Shown in pieces: positions 3,610-54,630 of a stretch of 64,000 nucleotides of DNA; positions within the stretch are counted from its first letter, which is position 1; every line of letters starts with the position of its first letter. Source of the DNA: Phylloscopus collybita (taxonomy: Eukaryota > Chordata > Aves > Passeriformes > Phylloscopidae); contig JAJNNQ010000003.1 of assembly GCA_027886175.1 (NCBI GenBank), positions 27,631,501-27,695,500 on the forward strand, read 5' to 3'. The notes beneath the pieces are model-generated. The model made no database searches and was not told the DNA's origin. It was given only the letters and a program-made list of their open reading frames with translations. The position numbers were made by a program, and so were the translations under genes.

Positions 3610-3731
3610 AGATGAACCGGCACCACTACGCGCTGTACGTGCACAACTGCCGCCTGGTCTTCCTGCTGCGCAAGGACTTCGACCGCGCCGACACCTTCCG
3701 CCCCGCCGAGTTCCACTGGAAACTGGACCAG
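3610..3731 (+). CDS. CLSTN2: CLSTN2 coding exon (LNS domain, second part)
   Basis: 122 bp exon entering in phase 1 and leaving in phase 0. It encodes EMNRHHYALYVHNCRLVFLL followed by RKDFDRADTFRPAEFHWKLDQ, one of the most conserved blocks of the calsyntenin LNS domain. The acceptor is gtccccgcag at 3600-3609. The donor is gaccag|gtacct at 3726-3737. The exon is far more GC-rich than the surrounding intron, mostly at third codon positions. A minisatellite begins within about 70 bp downstream of the donor, and the reading frame stays open into it as far as 3893. That extension lacks family similarity and is treated as intron. The next exon continues ICDKEWHYY, as expected for all calsyntenins. 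Confidence 0.95.
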
Positions 3732-3784
3732 GTACCTCCCTCCTGCTGCCTGAGGTCATCCGGGACCTCCCTCCTCCCCAGCCC

Positions 3785-4015
3785 CTCCAGACAGCTCAGG
3801 AACCTCCCAGATCCCAGATCCCTGCTGCTCAGCTGCTCTAGACAGCACAGGGAACCTCCCAGATCCCAGATCCCTGCTGCTCAGCTGCTCTAGACAGCTC
3901 AGGAACCTCCCAGATCCCAGATCCCTGCTGCTCAGCCGCTCTAGACAGTACAGGGAACCTCCCAGATCCCTGCTGCTCAGCCGCTCTAGACAGTACAGGG
4001 AACCTCCCCGATTCC
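3785..4015. repeat. Minisatellite, 51-52 bp unit, about 4.5 copies
   Basis: A GC-rich tandem array starts just inside the intron. The word aacctccc recurs at 3801, 3853, 3904, 3956 and 4001, giving spacings of 52, 51, 52 and 45 bp. Each unit carries agatcccagatcc (shortened in the later units), ctgctgctcagc and tctagacag. The first segment after the donor (gtacctccc, then gacctccctcc) looks like degenerate material of the same kind, so the array may have grown out of the exon-flanking sequence. Confidence 0.9.
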
Positions 4016-4819
4016 AGAACAGCTGTCTGGAGTCTGTCTGAAATCCCTTGTAACTTGCAGCTTTTACAACTCTAATTCAGATCCACATAAAAAGAGAGAA
4101 ATTAGTTAACTTTGTCAAGTCATTTTATACACTTGGTTTGGTTTTGTTTTGTTCTTTAATTGAGCCACTTTAAATGGTAAGTAGAGATTTATATACTTTG
4201 GCACTGGAGAGAGGCGTGACATTGCATATAGTTCCCTAAAAGTTTTCCATTTATCATTTCTATAAAATCTGCTTTATCAGCATAATGGAAGTGATGGAAA
4301 CCTTTTCAGTAAAGAGTATGCTGACACATAGAAAGGCACTTCTATTATATTGTAAATCCAATCTGCAGACCTTTTCTTTCATCTGCTGTGCTGTATCTAA
4401 TTTCATCTTATTATTAAAAGTATATTGCAAGAAAATTATTATTAAAGAGATAAGAGTTGCCTTTTCATAGATTTATTAATTCTCAGCAGGATAAGGATCA
4501 TTTGGATGAAAAAAGACAGACTTCAGCAAAGTTCTGTTTTGTAAAAGCAAGTTTCTTCTTCTTTGAGTCCAAAGACTATATGCTATTTAAAATGTAGCTA
4601 TAGGAATGTTTACTTTTCTAATTCACCTTCTAAATGCATATAAAAATGAGATCTCTATTGTGTTTATCAGATGAGTATGGTAAGAAAGCCTGTGGTGGTC
4701 ATAGCACTTGATTTGCATTTACTCTAACCACTCTGGAATCAGTTTGTGCTGTACTCGGTATGAAATCTTACGGTGTCTCAAAACAAATTGAAATTAAATC
4801 ATATTAAAGATTGCAAGTC
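4016..4819. other. CLSTN2: Intronic DNA, no recognised feature
   Basis: Unique-looking AT-rich intron between the minisatellite and the first solo LTR. Short open frames only. I see nothing else in it. Confidence 0.6.
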
Positions 4820-20600: not shown

Positions 20601-21942
20601 TTGAAAATATCAGCTTGGAAAGAAGACTGTGATTAGACACATGCTTATTTGAATACTTAGTTCTTATTAGATACATGCTTATTTGCATACTTGAGCAGGT
20701 ACACAAGAAATTCCAGTATTTCTAATGGACAGTTTCCTAGACTATCCAACTGAATAGTTCATATTGAAGAAATATTGTTTTATAAGGTACACAAACTCTC
20801 ATTTTAGATCAATGAGAATGAGTCTGCATTATCTTTTCAGTTAGTGAGATTATAAGAGCAAGGAAGTGCTTCCCAGTCCTTTGGTAGGAAATACAAACTG
20901 TTTCCAGATTCCTCCCCAGAACTCCTGTGAGGAAGCAATAACTTGCTTGAGACTTCCATAAGGAGCAGGGAAGTCTCTTTTGGTCCCTTCCCTGGGTAGT
21001 TTTCTTCTGATACTGAGCTGAGGTTCCAGAAAGAAGGAATTAATTTGCACAGTGCTCATCTCCTTTATTCTTTAGCTGTTCACACACAGTCCTTTACAAA
21101 TGCAGCTATAGAAGAATGGTTATTTAATTTTCCAAAATAACTCTCTGCACACAGAGCTGTAACATCACATCAGCATCTGTACCAGAGATACCCAAGTTCT
21201 GATACAGCTCTGGGAGCTGTGGAACAGCTTCCTCAGCAAGGAGTACAAATTACTCCATCCTGCAGCCACTGCTGCTGACACTTGGAAGAGTGGTGATGCT
21301 CCAGTCTCAAAAGCAGAAAAGCTTGTCCAGAGCAAAGCAGTCGGGCTGGTTGGGTTTTTTTCCTTCACTGCCAGCCACCAGCTGTCAGAATTCTGCAGCT
21401 TGCTCGGAGAGACTCTGTGATCACTTTTGAGCAGGGCTGTGCAGGCTGAGCTGAGAGCTACAAGATTTATGTGGAGGTTACCTGTGCAGCAGCATTCTTA
21501 CAGACAAAACACTGCTTTGGTAGATTATGATGATGCTTTGCAGTGTGTCACCTGTAAATGTAACTGTGGGAGTGGGTATCAATGCCTCCTTTTCCCATAT
21601 GCAGTGTATTTTCCTTGCATCCTGCCTTAATTACTACTTCCATACTGTATGTATTGGCACTGCAGAGACAATATTGATTTTACAGACAGGGGGGAAAGAT
21701 GTCCTGTGAAGGAGCTGCTGAAGGATAAATGTAGAACACAAAACGCAAAGAGAGTGTCAAAAAAGAAGCCCTGGTACATAATATGAATATTTTAGAGCTT
21801 TATTTAAAGTTTTCTGAAGAGGTTGTGGAGATATTGGAGACCTAGCTGCAATCTACACACCTTCATTTAGTGGTCAGGAATAACAAACCCTTTCCCAGAG
21901 ACGTTTTAATAATTTCCAGAGAAGCAATGGAAGCTTCTCAGG
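14612..21942. other. CLSTN2: CLSTN2 intron segment
   Basis: Mostly unique-looking AT-rich intron. Supported structures are a (GTTT)n stretch at 14726-14750 and a two-copy tandem duplication near 18081-18195. Several 60-125 codon open frames occur on both strands (for example 16831-17205 on the minus strand and 18293-18604 on the plus strand), but none has recognisable protein similarity or a credible splice context. Confidence 0.55.
18079..18195. repeat. Two-copy tandem duplication, about 62 bp unit
   Basis: The block caggatgagttac, then ttc, then gtaaagcttcctg and tacaag appears at 18091 and again at 18153. The copies share about 50 of 60 positions and differ by scattered substitutions, so this is a moderately old local duplication. 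Confidence 0.85.
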
Positions 21943-22138
21943 GGCTCCCTGAGATGTGCAGGCTGGGCTGTGCAGAGCTCTTTTCCTGCTGGGCTCCCTG
22001 GGATGTGCAGGCTGGGCTCTGCAGAGCTCTTTTCCTGCTGGGCTCCCTGGGATGTGCAGGCTGGGCTGGGCAGAGCTCTTTTCCTGCTGGGCTCCCTGGG
22101 ATGTGCAGGCTGGGCTCTGCAGAGCAGTTTCCCTGCTG
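21943..22138. repeat. Minisatellite A, four 49 bp units
   Basis: Units start at 21943, 21992, 22041 and 22090 with exact 49 bp spacing. Each reads ggctccct, then gatgtgcaggctgggct, then cagagc and a pyrimidine block ending cctgctg. The GC-rich array sits at one end of a repeat whose right-hand flank (22139-22337) recurs near 24920 and 25280. Because 49 is not a multiple of three, the overlapping open frames across it are artefacts of the repeat. Confidence 0.93.
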
Positions 22139-22337
22139 GAGTTCCCCAGGCTGCTGAGAGGCACCAGAGGGATGTGCAGGGTGCTCAGCAGAGGCTCGTG
22201 GGGAGCAGGGACAGTTCTCCACTGGGCAGGTGGGGAGCACAGGCTGCCCTGGGGTGTGCAGCCAAGCAGGTGCACGATCCCCTTCCAGGAGTGGCCCCAG
22301 CTGACCCAAGGGAGGTTCCAAGAAATTGCAGATTGTC
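22139..22337. repeat. Flank of GC-rich interspersed repeat, copy A
   Basis: About 200 bp from gagttccccaggctgctgag to aaattgcagatt. It is nearly identical to the combined segments 24919-24973 and 25277-25423. Together with minisatellite A it forms one copy of an unclassified GC-rich interspersed element present twice in this intron, about 2.7 kb apart in the same orientation. I do not recognise the family. A fragment of endogenous-retroviral or satellite-like origin is possible. Confidence 0.8.
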
Positions 22338-24585: not shown

Positions 24586-24918
24586 GCATGCAGAGCTGTT
24601 TTCCTGATGGGGCTCCCTGGAATGCAGCTGGGCTGTGCAGGCTGGGCTCTGCAGAGCTGTTCCCCTGCTCAGGGTCCCTGGGATGTGCAGGCTGGGCTGT
24701 GCAGAGCTGTTTCCCTGCTCAGGGTCCCTGGGATGTGCAGGCTGGGCTCTGCAGAGCTCTTTTCCTGCTCAGGGTCCCTGGGATGTGCAGGCTGGGCTGT
24801 GCAGAGCTGTTTCCCTGCTCAGGGTCCCTGGGATGTGCAGGCTGGGCTGTGCAGAGCTCTTTTCCTGCTCAGGGTCCCTGGGATGTGCAGGCTGGGCTGT
24901 GCAGAGCTGTTTCCCTGC
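24586..24918. repeat. Minisatellite B, 50 bp unit, about six copies
   Basis: Units begin agggtccctggg at 24671, 24721, 24771, 24821 and 24871 with exact 50 bp spacing. A diverged leading unit lies at about 24606-24670. The core (gatgtgcaggctgggct, cagagc, ccctgct) is shared with minisatellite A. This is the paralogous array with a 1 bp longer unit. Confidence 0.93.
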
Positions 24919-25423
24919 TGGAGTTCCCCAGGCTGCTGAGGGGCACCAGAGGGACGTGCAGGGTGCTCAGCAGATTTCGCTGTGGGACACAATGAAGGGA
25001 GATGTGGAGTAGTGATTTTAGAAGGCTGCTGGACTCCTGAGGAGGAGCTACAGGTTTATTTTCTAAACCTCTTTTATACTTTCTACAAACGTGCCCACCT
25101 TAGAGGTGGGACCCCTGGAACCATTGGTCGCTCACAGAGACCACCATGCAAAGTCCCTCTTCCAAAGCCTGTGGAAAACAAGATAGTTTACAGAGAGTGA
25201 CCTTGTTTACCAGTTTCGGTCCCTGGGAAGAGAATTTCTTAAAACCAAAACATGGCAGGCACGAATCGTAGCAACAAGCAGAGGCTCGTGGGGAGCATGG
25301 ACAGTTCTCCACTGGGCAGGTGGGGAGCACAGGCTGCCCTGGGGTGTGCAGCCAAGCAGGTGCATGATCCCCTTCCAGGAGTGGCCCCAGCTGACCCAAG
25401 GGAGGTTCCAAGAAATTGCAGAT
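24919..25423. repeat. Flank of GC-rich interspersed repeat, copy B, interrupted by an LTR
   Basis: 24919-24973 and 25277-25423 together match the copy A flank (22139-22337) with few differences. The match stops at gtgctcagcag, is interrupted by 24974-25276, and resumes at agcagaggctcgtgg. Homology to copy A ends at about 25423 (gaaattgcagatt). Confidence 0.85.
24974..25276 (-). mobile_element. Solo LTR (about 303 bp) inserted in repeat copy B
   Basis: The uninterrupted paralogue at 22139-22337 serves as an empty site. Relative to it, 303 bp are inserted and flanked by a perfect 5 bp duplication, agcag (24969-24973 and 25277-25281). On the minus strand the insert begins TGTTGCTACG. It carries a TATA box (tataaaag, plus-strand 25071-25078) followed by AATAAA (plus-strand TTTATT at 25055-25060), in the order of a retroviral U3-R-U5. 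The far end (plus-strand atttcgctg) is not a clean CA. It is not related to the three-copy LTR family at 4825, 13867 and 28373. Confidence 0.8.
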
Positions 25424-49794: not shown

Positions 49795-49940
49795 GTGTGG
49801 ACAGCATGTTCAGCTACGAGCAGGTGCTGAGGCAGCTCCGCTACCGCAACTGGGGCACCGCAGCCACCTCGGAGAGGAAGTTCAGGGTCAAATGCTCCGA
49901 GCTCAACGGGCGCTACACCAGCAACGAGTTCAACCTGGAG
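49795..49940 (+). CDS. CLSTN2: CLSTN2 coding exon whose 5' splice site is tandemly amplified
   Basis: 146 bp exon entering in phase 1 and leaving in phase 0. It encodes GVDSMFSYEQVLRQLRYRNW, then GTAATSERKFRVKCSELNGR, then YTSNEFNLE. The last block is a conserved calsyntenin segment leading into the membrane-proximal stalk. The acceptor is ccaccctgcag ending 49794. The family-conserved boundary is NLE|V, so the ancestral donor is ctggag|gtgagc at 49935-49946. The exon is GC-rich. Directly at this donor the sequence enters a 37-unit 24 bp array. Each unit repeats the last 15 exon bases and the first 9 intron bases, so the reading frame stays open with 8-residue VSTE-type repeats to a stop at 50841-50843. 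Which donor is used cannot be read from sequence. 49940 is chosen because it is the original junction and matches other calsyntenins. Confidence 0.93.
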
Positions 49941-50828
49941 GTGAGCACTGAGTTCAACCTGGAGGTGAGCACTGAGCTCAGCCTGGAGGTGAGCACTGAG
50001 TTCAACCTGGAGGTGAGCACTGAGCTCAGCCTGGAGGTGAGCACTGAGCTCAGCCTGGAGGTGAGCACTGAGTTCAGTTTAGAGGTGAGCACTGAGTTCA
50101 GCCTGGAGGTGAGCACTGAGCTCAGCCTGGAGGTGAGCACTGAGCTCAGCCTGGAGGTGAGCACTGAGCTCAGCCTGGAGGTGAGCACTGAGTTCAGCCT
50201 GGAGGTGAGCACTGAGTTCAGTTTAGAGGTGAGCACTGAGTTCAACCTGGAGGTGAGCACTGAGCTCAGCCTGGAGGTGAGCACTGAGCTCAGCCTGGAG
50301 GTGAGCACTGAGTTCAGCCTGGAGGTGAGCACTGAGTTCAGTTTGGAGTTGAGCACTGAGCTCAGCCTGGAGGTGAGCACTGAGTTCAGTTTGGAGGTGA
50401 GCACTGAGTTCAGCCTGGAGGTGAGCACTGAGCTCAGCCTGGAGGTGAGCACTGAGTTCAGTTTGGAGGTGAGCACTGAGTTCAGTTTAGAGGTGAGCAC
50501 TGAGTTCAACCTGGAGGTGAGCACTGAGTTCAGCCTGGAGGTGAGCACTGAGTTCAGTTTAGAGGTGAGCACTGAGCTCAGCCTGGAGGTGAGCACTGAG
50601 TTCAGTTTAGGGGTGAGCACTGAGTTCAGTTTAGAGGTGAGCACTGAGCTCAGCCTGGAGGTGAGCACTGAGTTCAGTTTGGAGGTGAGCACTGAGTTCA
50701 GTTTAGAGGTGAGCACTGAGTTCAGTTTGGAGGTGAGCACTAAGCTCAGCCTGGAGGTGAGCACTGAGCTCAGCCTGGAGGTGAGCACTGAGTTCAGTTT
50801 AGAGGTGAGCACTGAGCTCAGCCTGGAG
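49941..50828 (+). repeat. 24 bp x 37 tandem array built from the exon/intron junction
   Basis: Exactly 37 contiguous 24 bp units (888 bp, no indel anywhere), followed by a partial unit starting gtgagcaatgac at 50829. Each unit is gtgagcact plus a copy of the exon end (gagttcaacctggag or a variant). Variants fall into a few classes: caacctgg, ctcagcctgg, ttcagcctgg, ttcagtttag and ttcagtttgg. Every boundary reads (g)ag|gtgagc or ggg|gtgagc except one at about 50349, where the GT has become TT. Counting the first and the trailing junction, 37 of 38 donors are intact. In the CLSTN2 frame each unit encodes VSTE(F/L)(N/S)LE. The array takes up 62% of the 1,433 bp intron. Confidence 0.97.
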
Positions 50829-51186
50829 GTGAGCAATGACTGAGTCATGTTTTCTGATCTAGAACCCGAGGCTTAGAGCCCAGGTAACAACTCCAGGAAA
50901 TTGCAGGACCTACTTAGCAATATGGTCAAAATTAATAATGGTTTATATGAAGGCAATTAACAGCTTAATAATTGTTAATAAAATGAAAATATTTCATAAT
51001 GTTTAGGTAACACCTAAAAGCTAATTAATATAGAGAGAAGAAAAAGTCACTACTTACCCAAACAGCTAAACTAAAAGAGTCCTGTTCTGTGCCACTTCAG
51101 AGTCAACAGCCAGAAAGGTTAGAATGCATTTTTCATGCTACAAATTAGAAATATTTGTATTTTGTAAGCTGTATATTTTCCATTGG

Positions 51187-51373: not shown

Positions 51374-51497
51374 GTTAATATTCTACACAGTTCTAACTCC
51401 AACTTCATGGAACATGTAAATCACATGATAGTCCAGCCCCAATTTCTCCAATCTGTTCAGCACCCTGAAGGGAGTGTAAGTGCAGTTCACAGCTCAG
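51374..51497 (+). CDS. CLSTN2: CLSTN2 coding exon (membrane-proximal stalk)
   Basis: 124 bp exon entering in phase 0 and leaving in phase 1. It encodes VNILHSSNSNFMEHVNHMIV, then QPQFLQSVQHPEGSVSAVHS, then S. The HVNHxIVQPxFLQSVxHPE pattern is specific to calsyntenin-2 (alcadein gamma). Alcadeins are known to be cut in this stalk by alpha-secretase-type proteases and then by gamma-secretase in the membrane, which releases p3-Alc-gamma peptides from exactly this region. This is the strongest evidence that the gene is CLSTN2 and not CLSTN1 or CLSTN3. The acceptor is ttctcccag ending 51373. The donor is ctcag|gtatgt at 51493-51503. Confidence 0.95.
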
Positions 51498-53083: not shown

Positions 53084-53265
53084 TGGTGCCCAGCGTGGCC
53101 ACGACCGTGATCATCATCTGCGTCAGCGCCCTGGTGTTGGTGGTGACGCTGGGCGTGCTGCGGCTGCGCGCGGCCCGGCACGGCGGCACGGCCCACCCGG
53201 GGGCCAAGGACAGCGAGATGGACTGGGACGACTCTGCCCTCACCATCACTGTCAACCCCATGGAG
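53084..53265 (+). CDS. CLSTN2: CLSTN2 coding exon (transmembrane helix, first WDDS motif)
   Basis: 182 bp exon entering in phase 1 and leaving in phase 0. It encodes VVPSVATTVIIICVSALVLV and then VTLGVLRLRAARHGG: a single hydrophobic helix of about 23 residues followed by a basic stop-transfer segment, the type I topology of calsyntenins. The cytoplasmic part ends SEMDWDDSALTITVNPME. MDWDDS is the first kinesin-light-chain-binding WDDS motif, and NPME is the motif reported to bind X11/Mint adaptors in alcadeins. The exon is very GC-rich, and its membrane-proximal cytoplasmic segment (ARHGGTAHPGAK) is more Ala/Gly/Arg-rich than I would expect from mammals. The donor is atggag|gtacct at 53260-53271. 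A GT-rich array begins about 90 bp into the intron. Confidence 0.96.
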
Positions 53266-54213
53266 GTACCTGGGCGGGGCCCAGCACGGAACCCTGGCAC
53301 TGCCAGGAGCCGCGGGCGGGGCTGGCAGTGGGTTTGAGCCTCTTCCAGGGGGCAGGTGTTTGGTGTGTGTGTGGGTGTGTGTGTGGGTGTGTGTGTGGGT
53401 GTGTGTGGAGGTGTGTGTGTGTGGGTGTCTGTGTGTGTGTGTGGGTGTGTGGGTGTCTGTGTGTGGGTGTGTCTGTGTGGGTGTGTGTGGGTGTGTGTGT
53501 GTGTGTGTGTGGGTGTGTGTGTGTGTGTGTGTGGGTGTGTGTGTGGGTGTGTGTGGGTGTGTGTGTGTGGGTGTGTCTGTGTGTGTGGGGGTGTGTGTGG
53601 AGGTGTGTGTGTGTGGGGGTGTGTGTGTGTGTGTGGGTGTGTGGGTGTCTGTGTGTGGGGGTGTCTGTGTGGGTGTGTGTGGGTGTGTGTGGGTGTGTGG
53701 GGGGTGGTGTATGTGTACACTCAGGAGCCCAGCCCAGCTCTCAGCTCTGCACACCTTGATCAGATGGAATTGAGAACTCCAGATCTGTTGTCAGGTATAG
53801 CTACTAAAGAAGGTGGTGAAGAACTCCCGGGTACAGCATCACTTCCACTCCATCCATGCCTGTTTTTAGGTACCCAAGATGATACGGTTGCTTTGGTTTT
53901 AACTTTTACATGTAAGCATTTATACACTAAAAAAAGTCTATAAAGGGGATACCACCAGCAGTTGAAAGAAGCTGATGTTGAAGGTTTAAATTTTGGCAGT
54001 GTGGCTAACAGAGATTGCTTAATGACACTCCATTCTTCTTACAGGAGTTTTTGAATGTTTGTTACCAGTACAAATTTGATGCCTAATCCTCACATAATGA
54101 TGGAAAGCAGATTTGCCCAGCATGTTAGCATTTCTAAATGCCCATTTGGGATAGTTCTGGCTGGCAAGAAGGCACCTTTCTGCTACTGTCTCATTTATTT
54201 AAATGTATTTTAG
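53266..54213. other. CLSTN2: Last CLSTN2 intron (948 bp)
   Basis: Intron from gtacct to gtattttag. About 37% of it is a GT-rich tandem array (53357-53710). The rest is unremarkable. Confidence 0.85.
53357..53710. repeat. GT/GGTGT-rich tandem array with 190 bp higher-order duplication
   Basis: About 350 bp made almost entirely of GT dinucleotides punctuated by GG and TCT. The landmark gtggaggtgtgtg occurs near 53407 and again near 53597, and matching landmarks follow each, so a roughly 190 bp block has been duplicated inside the array. The alternating purine-pyrimidine sequence can adopt Z-DNA. Open frames reading CVGVCV or HTHTPTH are artefacts. Confidence 0.95.
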
Positions 54214-54426: not shown

Positions 54427-54630
54427 CAAGCAGCCCTCCAGCTCTTTTGTAACAGCCAATACAATGTTTTTTCATAGTCTATGAATTCATTGACAGGATT
54501 TGAACTTCTGCTTGCCCATAACTTTTTTTTTCCTAAAATGATCTTGTTGTAGTAATTGATAATGATAGAACTGACCCTTTCCTTACAAAGCCTGGGGAAA
54601 TCATGCTACAAACATCCTGGCACACATGGT

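Follow-up and report, generated by a model that had tools for sequence, protein, structure and literature searches.

A 24-bp minisatellite across a CLSTN2 exon-intron boundary in oscine birds, with in-frame splice donors that may lengthen the protein in eight-residue steps

A window of 64,000 nucleotides from Phylloscopus collybita (assembly GCA_027886175.1, contig JAJNNQ010000003.1, positions 27,631,501 to 27,695,500 of the forward strand) contains a 24-bp minisatellite that runs across an exon-intron boundary of CLSTN2 and repeats the end of the exon together with its splice donor. From the predicted proteins of other songbirds, some of which carry inserts of whole repeat units at this very boundary, we consider it fairly probable that this is an oscine minisatellite whose extra in-frame donors are occasionally used. 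The repeat can probably lengthen the CLSTN2 protein in small steps, and the extended protein is likely to be a minor product. The array was undescribed in the literature that we examined, which consisted of open-licence papers.

The 3’ part of CLSTN2 lies on the + strand of the window as 11 exons, the first starting at 2846 and the last reaching a stop codon near 54427. Joined with consistent phases, and with the first exon trimmed by two bases, at a codon boundary, these exons encode a 635-residue protein, of which residues 221-568 are covered by the Calsyntenin C-terminal domain (PF19699, E 1.7e-133). The best 120 of 1179 relatives are bird calsyntenin-2 or CSTN2 by name, with one unnamed product excepted, at identities of 89-96%. 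Closest by protein among the retrieved relatives was the X3 model of Prinia subflava, a truncated model identical at 493 of 506 aligned residues (97.4%), and a fast tree paired the two with support 0.86; the same tree placed this pair beside Tichodroma and the thrush-starling birds, not with other warbler-type birds, at the weak support of 0.23 to 0.54. The junction that concerns us here, at which NLE is followed by VNIL, lies inside the PF19699-matched region, about 45 residues before a hydrophobic stretch that we read by eye as a membrane span. Searches of the PDB returned no match for the 635-residue protein at E 0.001 and none for the junction piece at 0.01. Two models of relatives have features of their own. 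The Prinia X3 model stops just ahead of the membrane span, at SSEI, possibly a second route to a span-less CLSTN2 in birds beside the read-through form described below, and in a hypothetical protein of Zosterops borbonicus (P0134) a reverse transcriptase domain (PF00078) accompanies the calsyntenin C-terminal domain, probably through a gene-prediction fusion with a retroelement.

The array comprises 38 head-to-tail 24-bp units with zero indels (49926-50837), and TRF reported it as 49926-50839, period 24, 38.1 copies and 0% indels. Unit 0 joins the end of the exon, GAGTTCAACCTGGAG, to the start of the intron, GTGAGCACT (15 and 9 bases, respectively); units 1-37 are added copies, and unit 0 is identical to unit 1 at 24 of 24 bases. 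The first-pass annotation had described the unit in just these terms, as the last 15 exon bases plus the first 9 intron bases repeated in 37 added copies without an indel, which both the sequence and TRF confirm, although its array start of 49917 was nine bases too early. The motif GGTGAGC is kept at the junction in 37 of the 38 units, and GAG followed directly by GTGAGC in 36; the deviant junctions are those of unit 17, whose donor at 50349 reads TTGAGC, and unit 28, in which GGG precedes GTGAGC. Because the exon 49795-49940 ends in phase 0, every donor in the array is in frame to the exon at 51374, with possible exon lengths of 146 to 1034 nt across the 38 junctions. Read on in frame from the exon, all units are free of stops, and a TGA follows at 50841-50843. 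Unit sequences and exon phase thus uphold the earlier statements that 37 of 38 junctions are intact and that any donor could splice in frame to 51374, and the spliced protein, its PF19699 match and the named relatives bear out the assignment to CLSTN2, the exon boundary, the amplification of the donor and the in-frame logic. The features are as follows.

49795..49940, + strand: CLSTN2 exon of 146 bp, phase 0 end, last 15 bases in repeat unit 0; CLSTN_C domain PF19699
49926..49949, + strand: repeat unit 0 (GAGTTCAACCTGGAG plus GTGAGCACT), canonical donor at 49941
49950..50837, + strand: the 37 added copies of 24 bp, of which 36 keep GGTGAGC as an in-phase donor
50349..50354, + strand: sole broken donor (unit 17, TTGAGC), read from the sequence
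50829..50843, + strand: last donor (unit 37), then VSND and the in-frame TGA, which would terminate a read-through product
50869..50946, + strand: intron homologous to the read-through tail of Agelaius tricolor (P0127), 26 residues, 92% identity, different frame
51374..51497, + strand: next CLSTN2 exon (VNILHSS...), one acceptor for all array donors

Nine unit types occur among the 38 units, with no block structure. Adjacent identical units were not in excess (5 observed vs 6.6 expected among the 38 units), and for want of such a surplus we rejected local block duplication as the origin of the array. Units near the exon are more like the exon copy (Spearman 0.46, permutation p 0.003), a gradient that may reflect either exchange with a constrained exon copy or an older far end. 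The variable columns of the unit also number nine: three are silent (positions 9, 10 and 12), and the others change an amino acid, recurrently at positions 4 and 8 and as singletons at 1, 14, 16 and 23. These nine columns of the 38 units gave no sign of purifying selection, absent stops being uninformative, and we rejected coding constraint within the array. Constraint on the donor was rejected as well: 2 of 9 donor columns vary vs 7 of 15 others, a difference that by our own reckoning is not significant.

How much of this arrangement could arise by chance depends on which aspect of it is considered. Merged by hand, the 29 TRF rows for the window reduced to 20 arrays; the 19 besides this one amounted to 2.8% of the window, and 0.58 of the 21 splice junctions would be expected to fall inside one. 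Mere overlap of an array with a splice junction is unremarkable; the exact copying of coding sequence along with its donor is a real structure. We put the chance of a unit that is both open in frame and a multiple of three in length at roughly 0.3 (1/3 multiplied by about 0.87, the latter for three intron codons). The in-frame property alone therefore proves nothing, and we agree with the caution voiced in the first-pass annotation that an open frame is not in itself proof of coding.

More informative are the CLSTN2 proteins of other birds. We retrieved 142 proteins, drawn from the best 120 of 1179, the best 120 of 277, and a search that scored the 8000 candidates sharing most words. Five rows (P0121-P0124 and P0126), matches to MAP7D3 and to unnamed proteins, were excluded as repeat look-alikes, leaving 137 calsyntenins that cover the junction; likewise, we dismissed as look-alikes the beta-barrel and other families that the translated array matched in Pfam. 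NLE is joined straight to VNIL or its variant, with no insert, in 124 of the 137 listed proteins. Ten others, from seven oscine species, carry an insert exactly at this junction, composed of units like V-S-x-E-F-S-L-E, and the inserts are always a multiple of 8 residues long (8 in six proteins, 16 in one, 24 in two and 48 in one), corresponding to 1, 2, 3 or 6 units.

8-residue insert: Agelaius tricolor X3; Ammospiza caudacuta X1; Acridotheres tristis 1-T1; three Haemorhous mexicanus isoforms
16-residue insert: Turdus rufiventris
24-residue insert: two Taeniopygia guttata X1 records
48-residue insert: Lamprotornis superbus

The last 3 of the 137 (Agelaius tricolor X5 and X6, and A. phoeniceus X5) read through the array into homologous intron, their sequences continuing past three units and VSND to end in a tail. 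The A. tricolor tail matches the window at 50869-50946, just behind the array, over 26 residues at 92% identity in another frame (E 2e-12, with the window alone as search space). All eight array-bearing species are oscines. Among the matches listed, no insert was seen in the retrieved owls, crane, seriema, ostrich or suboscines, nor in the retrieved proteins of Hirundo (X1-X3), Prinia (X3) and Chamaea; the protein database consists of cluster representatives, so absence of an insert in a species is weak evidence. Many of the records with no insert are entries titled ‘CSTN2 protein, partial’, which we presume to have been predicted by homology and which carry little weight either way.

Among these predicted gene models, the strongest item of evidence is the set of isoform pairs that differ solely by the insert. 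Two such pairs occur in zebra finch (24 residues; P0117/P0102 and P0115/P0099), two in house finch (8 residues; P0098/P0063 and P0096/P0061) and one in common myna (8 residues; P0088/P0045). Where RefSeq issues alternative models, transcript alignments normally underlie them; the models of Turdus and Lamprotornis appear to come from submitters. Unless a model is wrong, an extension isoform requires an internal donor joined to the downstream exon. One suggestion of the first-pass annotation, that the array is a variable-length protein-repeat generator, thereby gains real support from the 8n inserts of seven other oscines and the isoform pairs of three species; this support extends to those relatives and not to use of the array in P. 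collybita itself.

The protein models also bear on the age of the array. The terminal VSND is common to the window array and to the arrays of other species, and together with the homologous intron behind it makes orthology the simplest reading for Agelaius and the window bird; an orthologous array would be older than the split of the groups to which these two belong, the other birds having been compared as protein models. All 37 added window units have Thr as their third residue (VST or LST), against none of 24 unit translations from other species (R7 K6 S6 N5). Those translations came from 10 of the 13 array-bearing proteins, several Agelaius isoforms included; the three left out repeat the insert of a species already represented, as additional isoforms or records. 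This points to spread of the window array, within its own lineage, from a unit that bore ACT. Thus we regard the array as probably an old oscine minisatellite spanning the splice donor, which in the lineage of the window bird was probably homogenised and probably expanded. The models of other species hold 2 to 7 units including the exon copy, which are lower bounds for their genomes.

Several known systems resemble this arrangement in part. Tandem alternative donors (GYNGYN and longer-spaced 5’ splice sites) are close competing donors that generate in-frame insertions, usually from two sites; the CLSTN2 donors are likewise competing and in frame, but comprise up to 38 near-identical sites at a fixed 24-bp step. 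Coding VNTRs, as in MUC1 and other mucins, are in-frame repeats inside a constitutive exon, and their copy number varies protein length. In CLSTN2, by contrast, units 1-37 lie beyond the canonical donor at 49941, so splicing decides how many are coded, and the majority of listed relatives (124/137) join NLE to VNIL directly. Introns can also be born by tandem duplication of AGGT segments, after which deletion of a whole unit looks like a GT-AG intron; here, however, the boundary pre-existed, and we found no evidence of real intron splicing within the array.

The direct precedent is the human ABCA7 intron-18 VNTR, a 25-bp repeat that begins with the GT donor of exon 18 (PMC5954066). Both tandem arrays include the exon’s own splice donor, which is the defining trait of a donor-spanning VNTR of the ABCA7 type. 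In the available text of that study, splicing from the second donor leaves exactly one repeat unit in the mRNA, at 2 +/- 1% as we read the wording and independently of VNTR length, while skipping of the next exon (exon 19) increased with the length of the VNTR, which is polymorphic at 12-427 units (PMC5954066). The ABCA7 unit shifts the frame, and the VNTR changes splicing that is linked to Alzheimer risk (PMC5954066); the 24-bp CLSTN2 unit keeps the frame, also holds 15 coding bases, and is accompanied by annotated protein extensions in relatives. As cycloheximide raised the frameshifted ABCA7 products, the measured 2% is a post-decay value and would understate donor use (PMC5954066). Papers on earthworm metallothionein (PMC12783039) and chicken MUC2 (PMC3549977), as far as their available text goes, have no bearing on the array and were set aside.

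Could the array be a neutral minisatellite from which the first donor alone is used, the inserts of relatives being artefacts of gene prediction or read alignment over the repeat? We consider this possible but rather unlikely. It would account readily for the 124 proteins with no insert, which include three Hirundo isoforms and Prinia X3, and for an open frame at its chance level; in ABCA7, moreover, with 12 to 427 repeated donors, the available text describes single-unit retention alone, at about 2% and independent of repeat length (PMC5954066). A route to such artefacts also exists, in that the exon part of the unit ends in AG and is followed by GT: whole units missing from a read mimic a canonical GT-AG intron, so differences in copy number between the RNA donor and the assembly could create or remove units in a model. 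Agelaius X5 and X6, which are one residue apart inside the array and nowhere else, may reflect a whole-unit gap that was read as an intron. Artefacts of this kind would nonetheless have had to yield inserts of 8n residues, always at this junction, in seven oscine species and from several annotation sources, as well as clean insert-only isoform pairs in three species, and the 2% of ABCA7 concerns a frameshifted product raised by cycloheximide (PMC5954066). Neutrality as such, another of the suggestions in the first-pass annotation, is still compatible with these data; low-level use of extra donors, as in ABCA7, needs no selected function.

The donors themselves are predicted to be nearly equivalent. 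For 36 of the 38 donors the predicted U1 duplex has an energy of -9.7 kcal/mol; unit 28 has -9.3 and unit 17 has -3.0. On a position-weight score built from approximate human frequencies, the unit donor scores 5.5 bits. It ranks fifth among the gene’s ten donors in the window, whose scores span 0.56 to 8.1, and the best GT outside the array between 49800 and 51370 scores at most 3.52. Folding models raise the idea that pairing between units hides the GU, lowering or regulating splicing of the intron and favouring its retention, an explanation to which we give very little credence. Mean predicted donor accessibility over five 10-unit blocks was 0.15, vs 0.34 +/- 0.08 in 100 versions with the non-donor bases permuted, 0/100 of which were as low; in 200-nt windows, 37 of the 38 array donors lay at 0.13-0.35 vs 0.29-0.69 for the gene’s nine other donors; and read-through isoforms are annotated in Agelaius. 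However, the donor of unit 36 is predicted open (0.71), the folding energy of the blocks was ordinary (29/100 permutations equally stable), and protein-bound pre-mRNA need not adopt a predicted fold. The hairpin of a single unit hardly beat dinucleotide shuffles (z between -0.46 and -1.32 across five unit types, and -0.69 in the stretch 49900-49980) and was rejected as a device on that account. With one positive folding result and two negative, we see no good evidence for the donor-competition device that the first-pass annotation had entertained. It is also very unlikely, in our estimation, that the count of 38 units is an assembly error and the real array short. The 2 to 7 units in the models of other species would fit a short array, these being lower bounds; the nine unit types without block structure and the graded divergence from the exon copy (rho 0.46) speak for the presence of the array, and the orthologous array in other species supports its presence, not its 38-unit length.

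We therefore return to occasional use of the extra donors of an oscine minisatellite. The unit contains the exon’s last five codons together with the 5’ splice site, so that each extra copy is an in-frame donor of nearly the same predicted strength. On this reading, U1 would mostly pick the first donor and, by analogy with ABCA7, at a low rate a donor a few units further in. Use of an internal donor would add (VSxEFSLE)n to the membrane-proximal ectodomain, and rare intron retention would give a truncated form without the membrane span. Copy number would shift through slippage or unequal exchange, and we propose that the array is tolerated because all products of donor choice stay in frame. 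The unit translation V-S-T-E-F-S-L-E, read from the sequence, alternates apolar and polar residues, suiting a strand.

A stronger proposal, that unit number in oscines acts as a heritable length dial, setting how isoforms are distributed between those lacking 8-residue amphipathic strand-like units next to the membrane and those with many, strikes us as unlikely. If it were true, length polymorphism of a minisatellite would vary a synaptic adhesion and stalk protein between species and individuals with the frame never broken, and the isoforms would also include a read-through form without the membrane span. The array in any case lines up as many as 37 near-identical, competing 5’ splice sites within a brain gene, all in frame and each 24 bp from the next, as a series supplied by nature. 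For zebra finch and house finch, both tractable songbirds, the protein models point to orthologous arrays, and the choice among equal donors is measurable by unit counts in cDNA. Such a series shows how a minisatellite at an exon boundary can turn into a source of variation in protein length.

CLSTN2 also appears, in the available part of a study of European blackcaps, in a table of regions tied to migratory phenotype, for the Med SE population (PMC7173969). Elsewhere in the window, a 51-bp minisatellite of 5 copies (3768-4018) lies 37 bp past the end of the exon 3610-3731, whose donor is outside the array, and a GT-rich array of about 360 bp (53356-53715) starts about 90 bp past the end of the exon 53084-53265. 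Two further arrays, at 21942-22139 and 24628-24919, consist of similar-looking GC-rich units of 49-50 bp (GGGATGTGCAGGCTGGGCT...) and lie about 2.5 kb apart in one intron.
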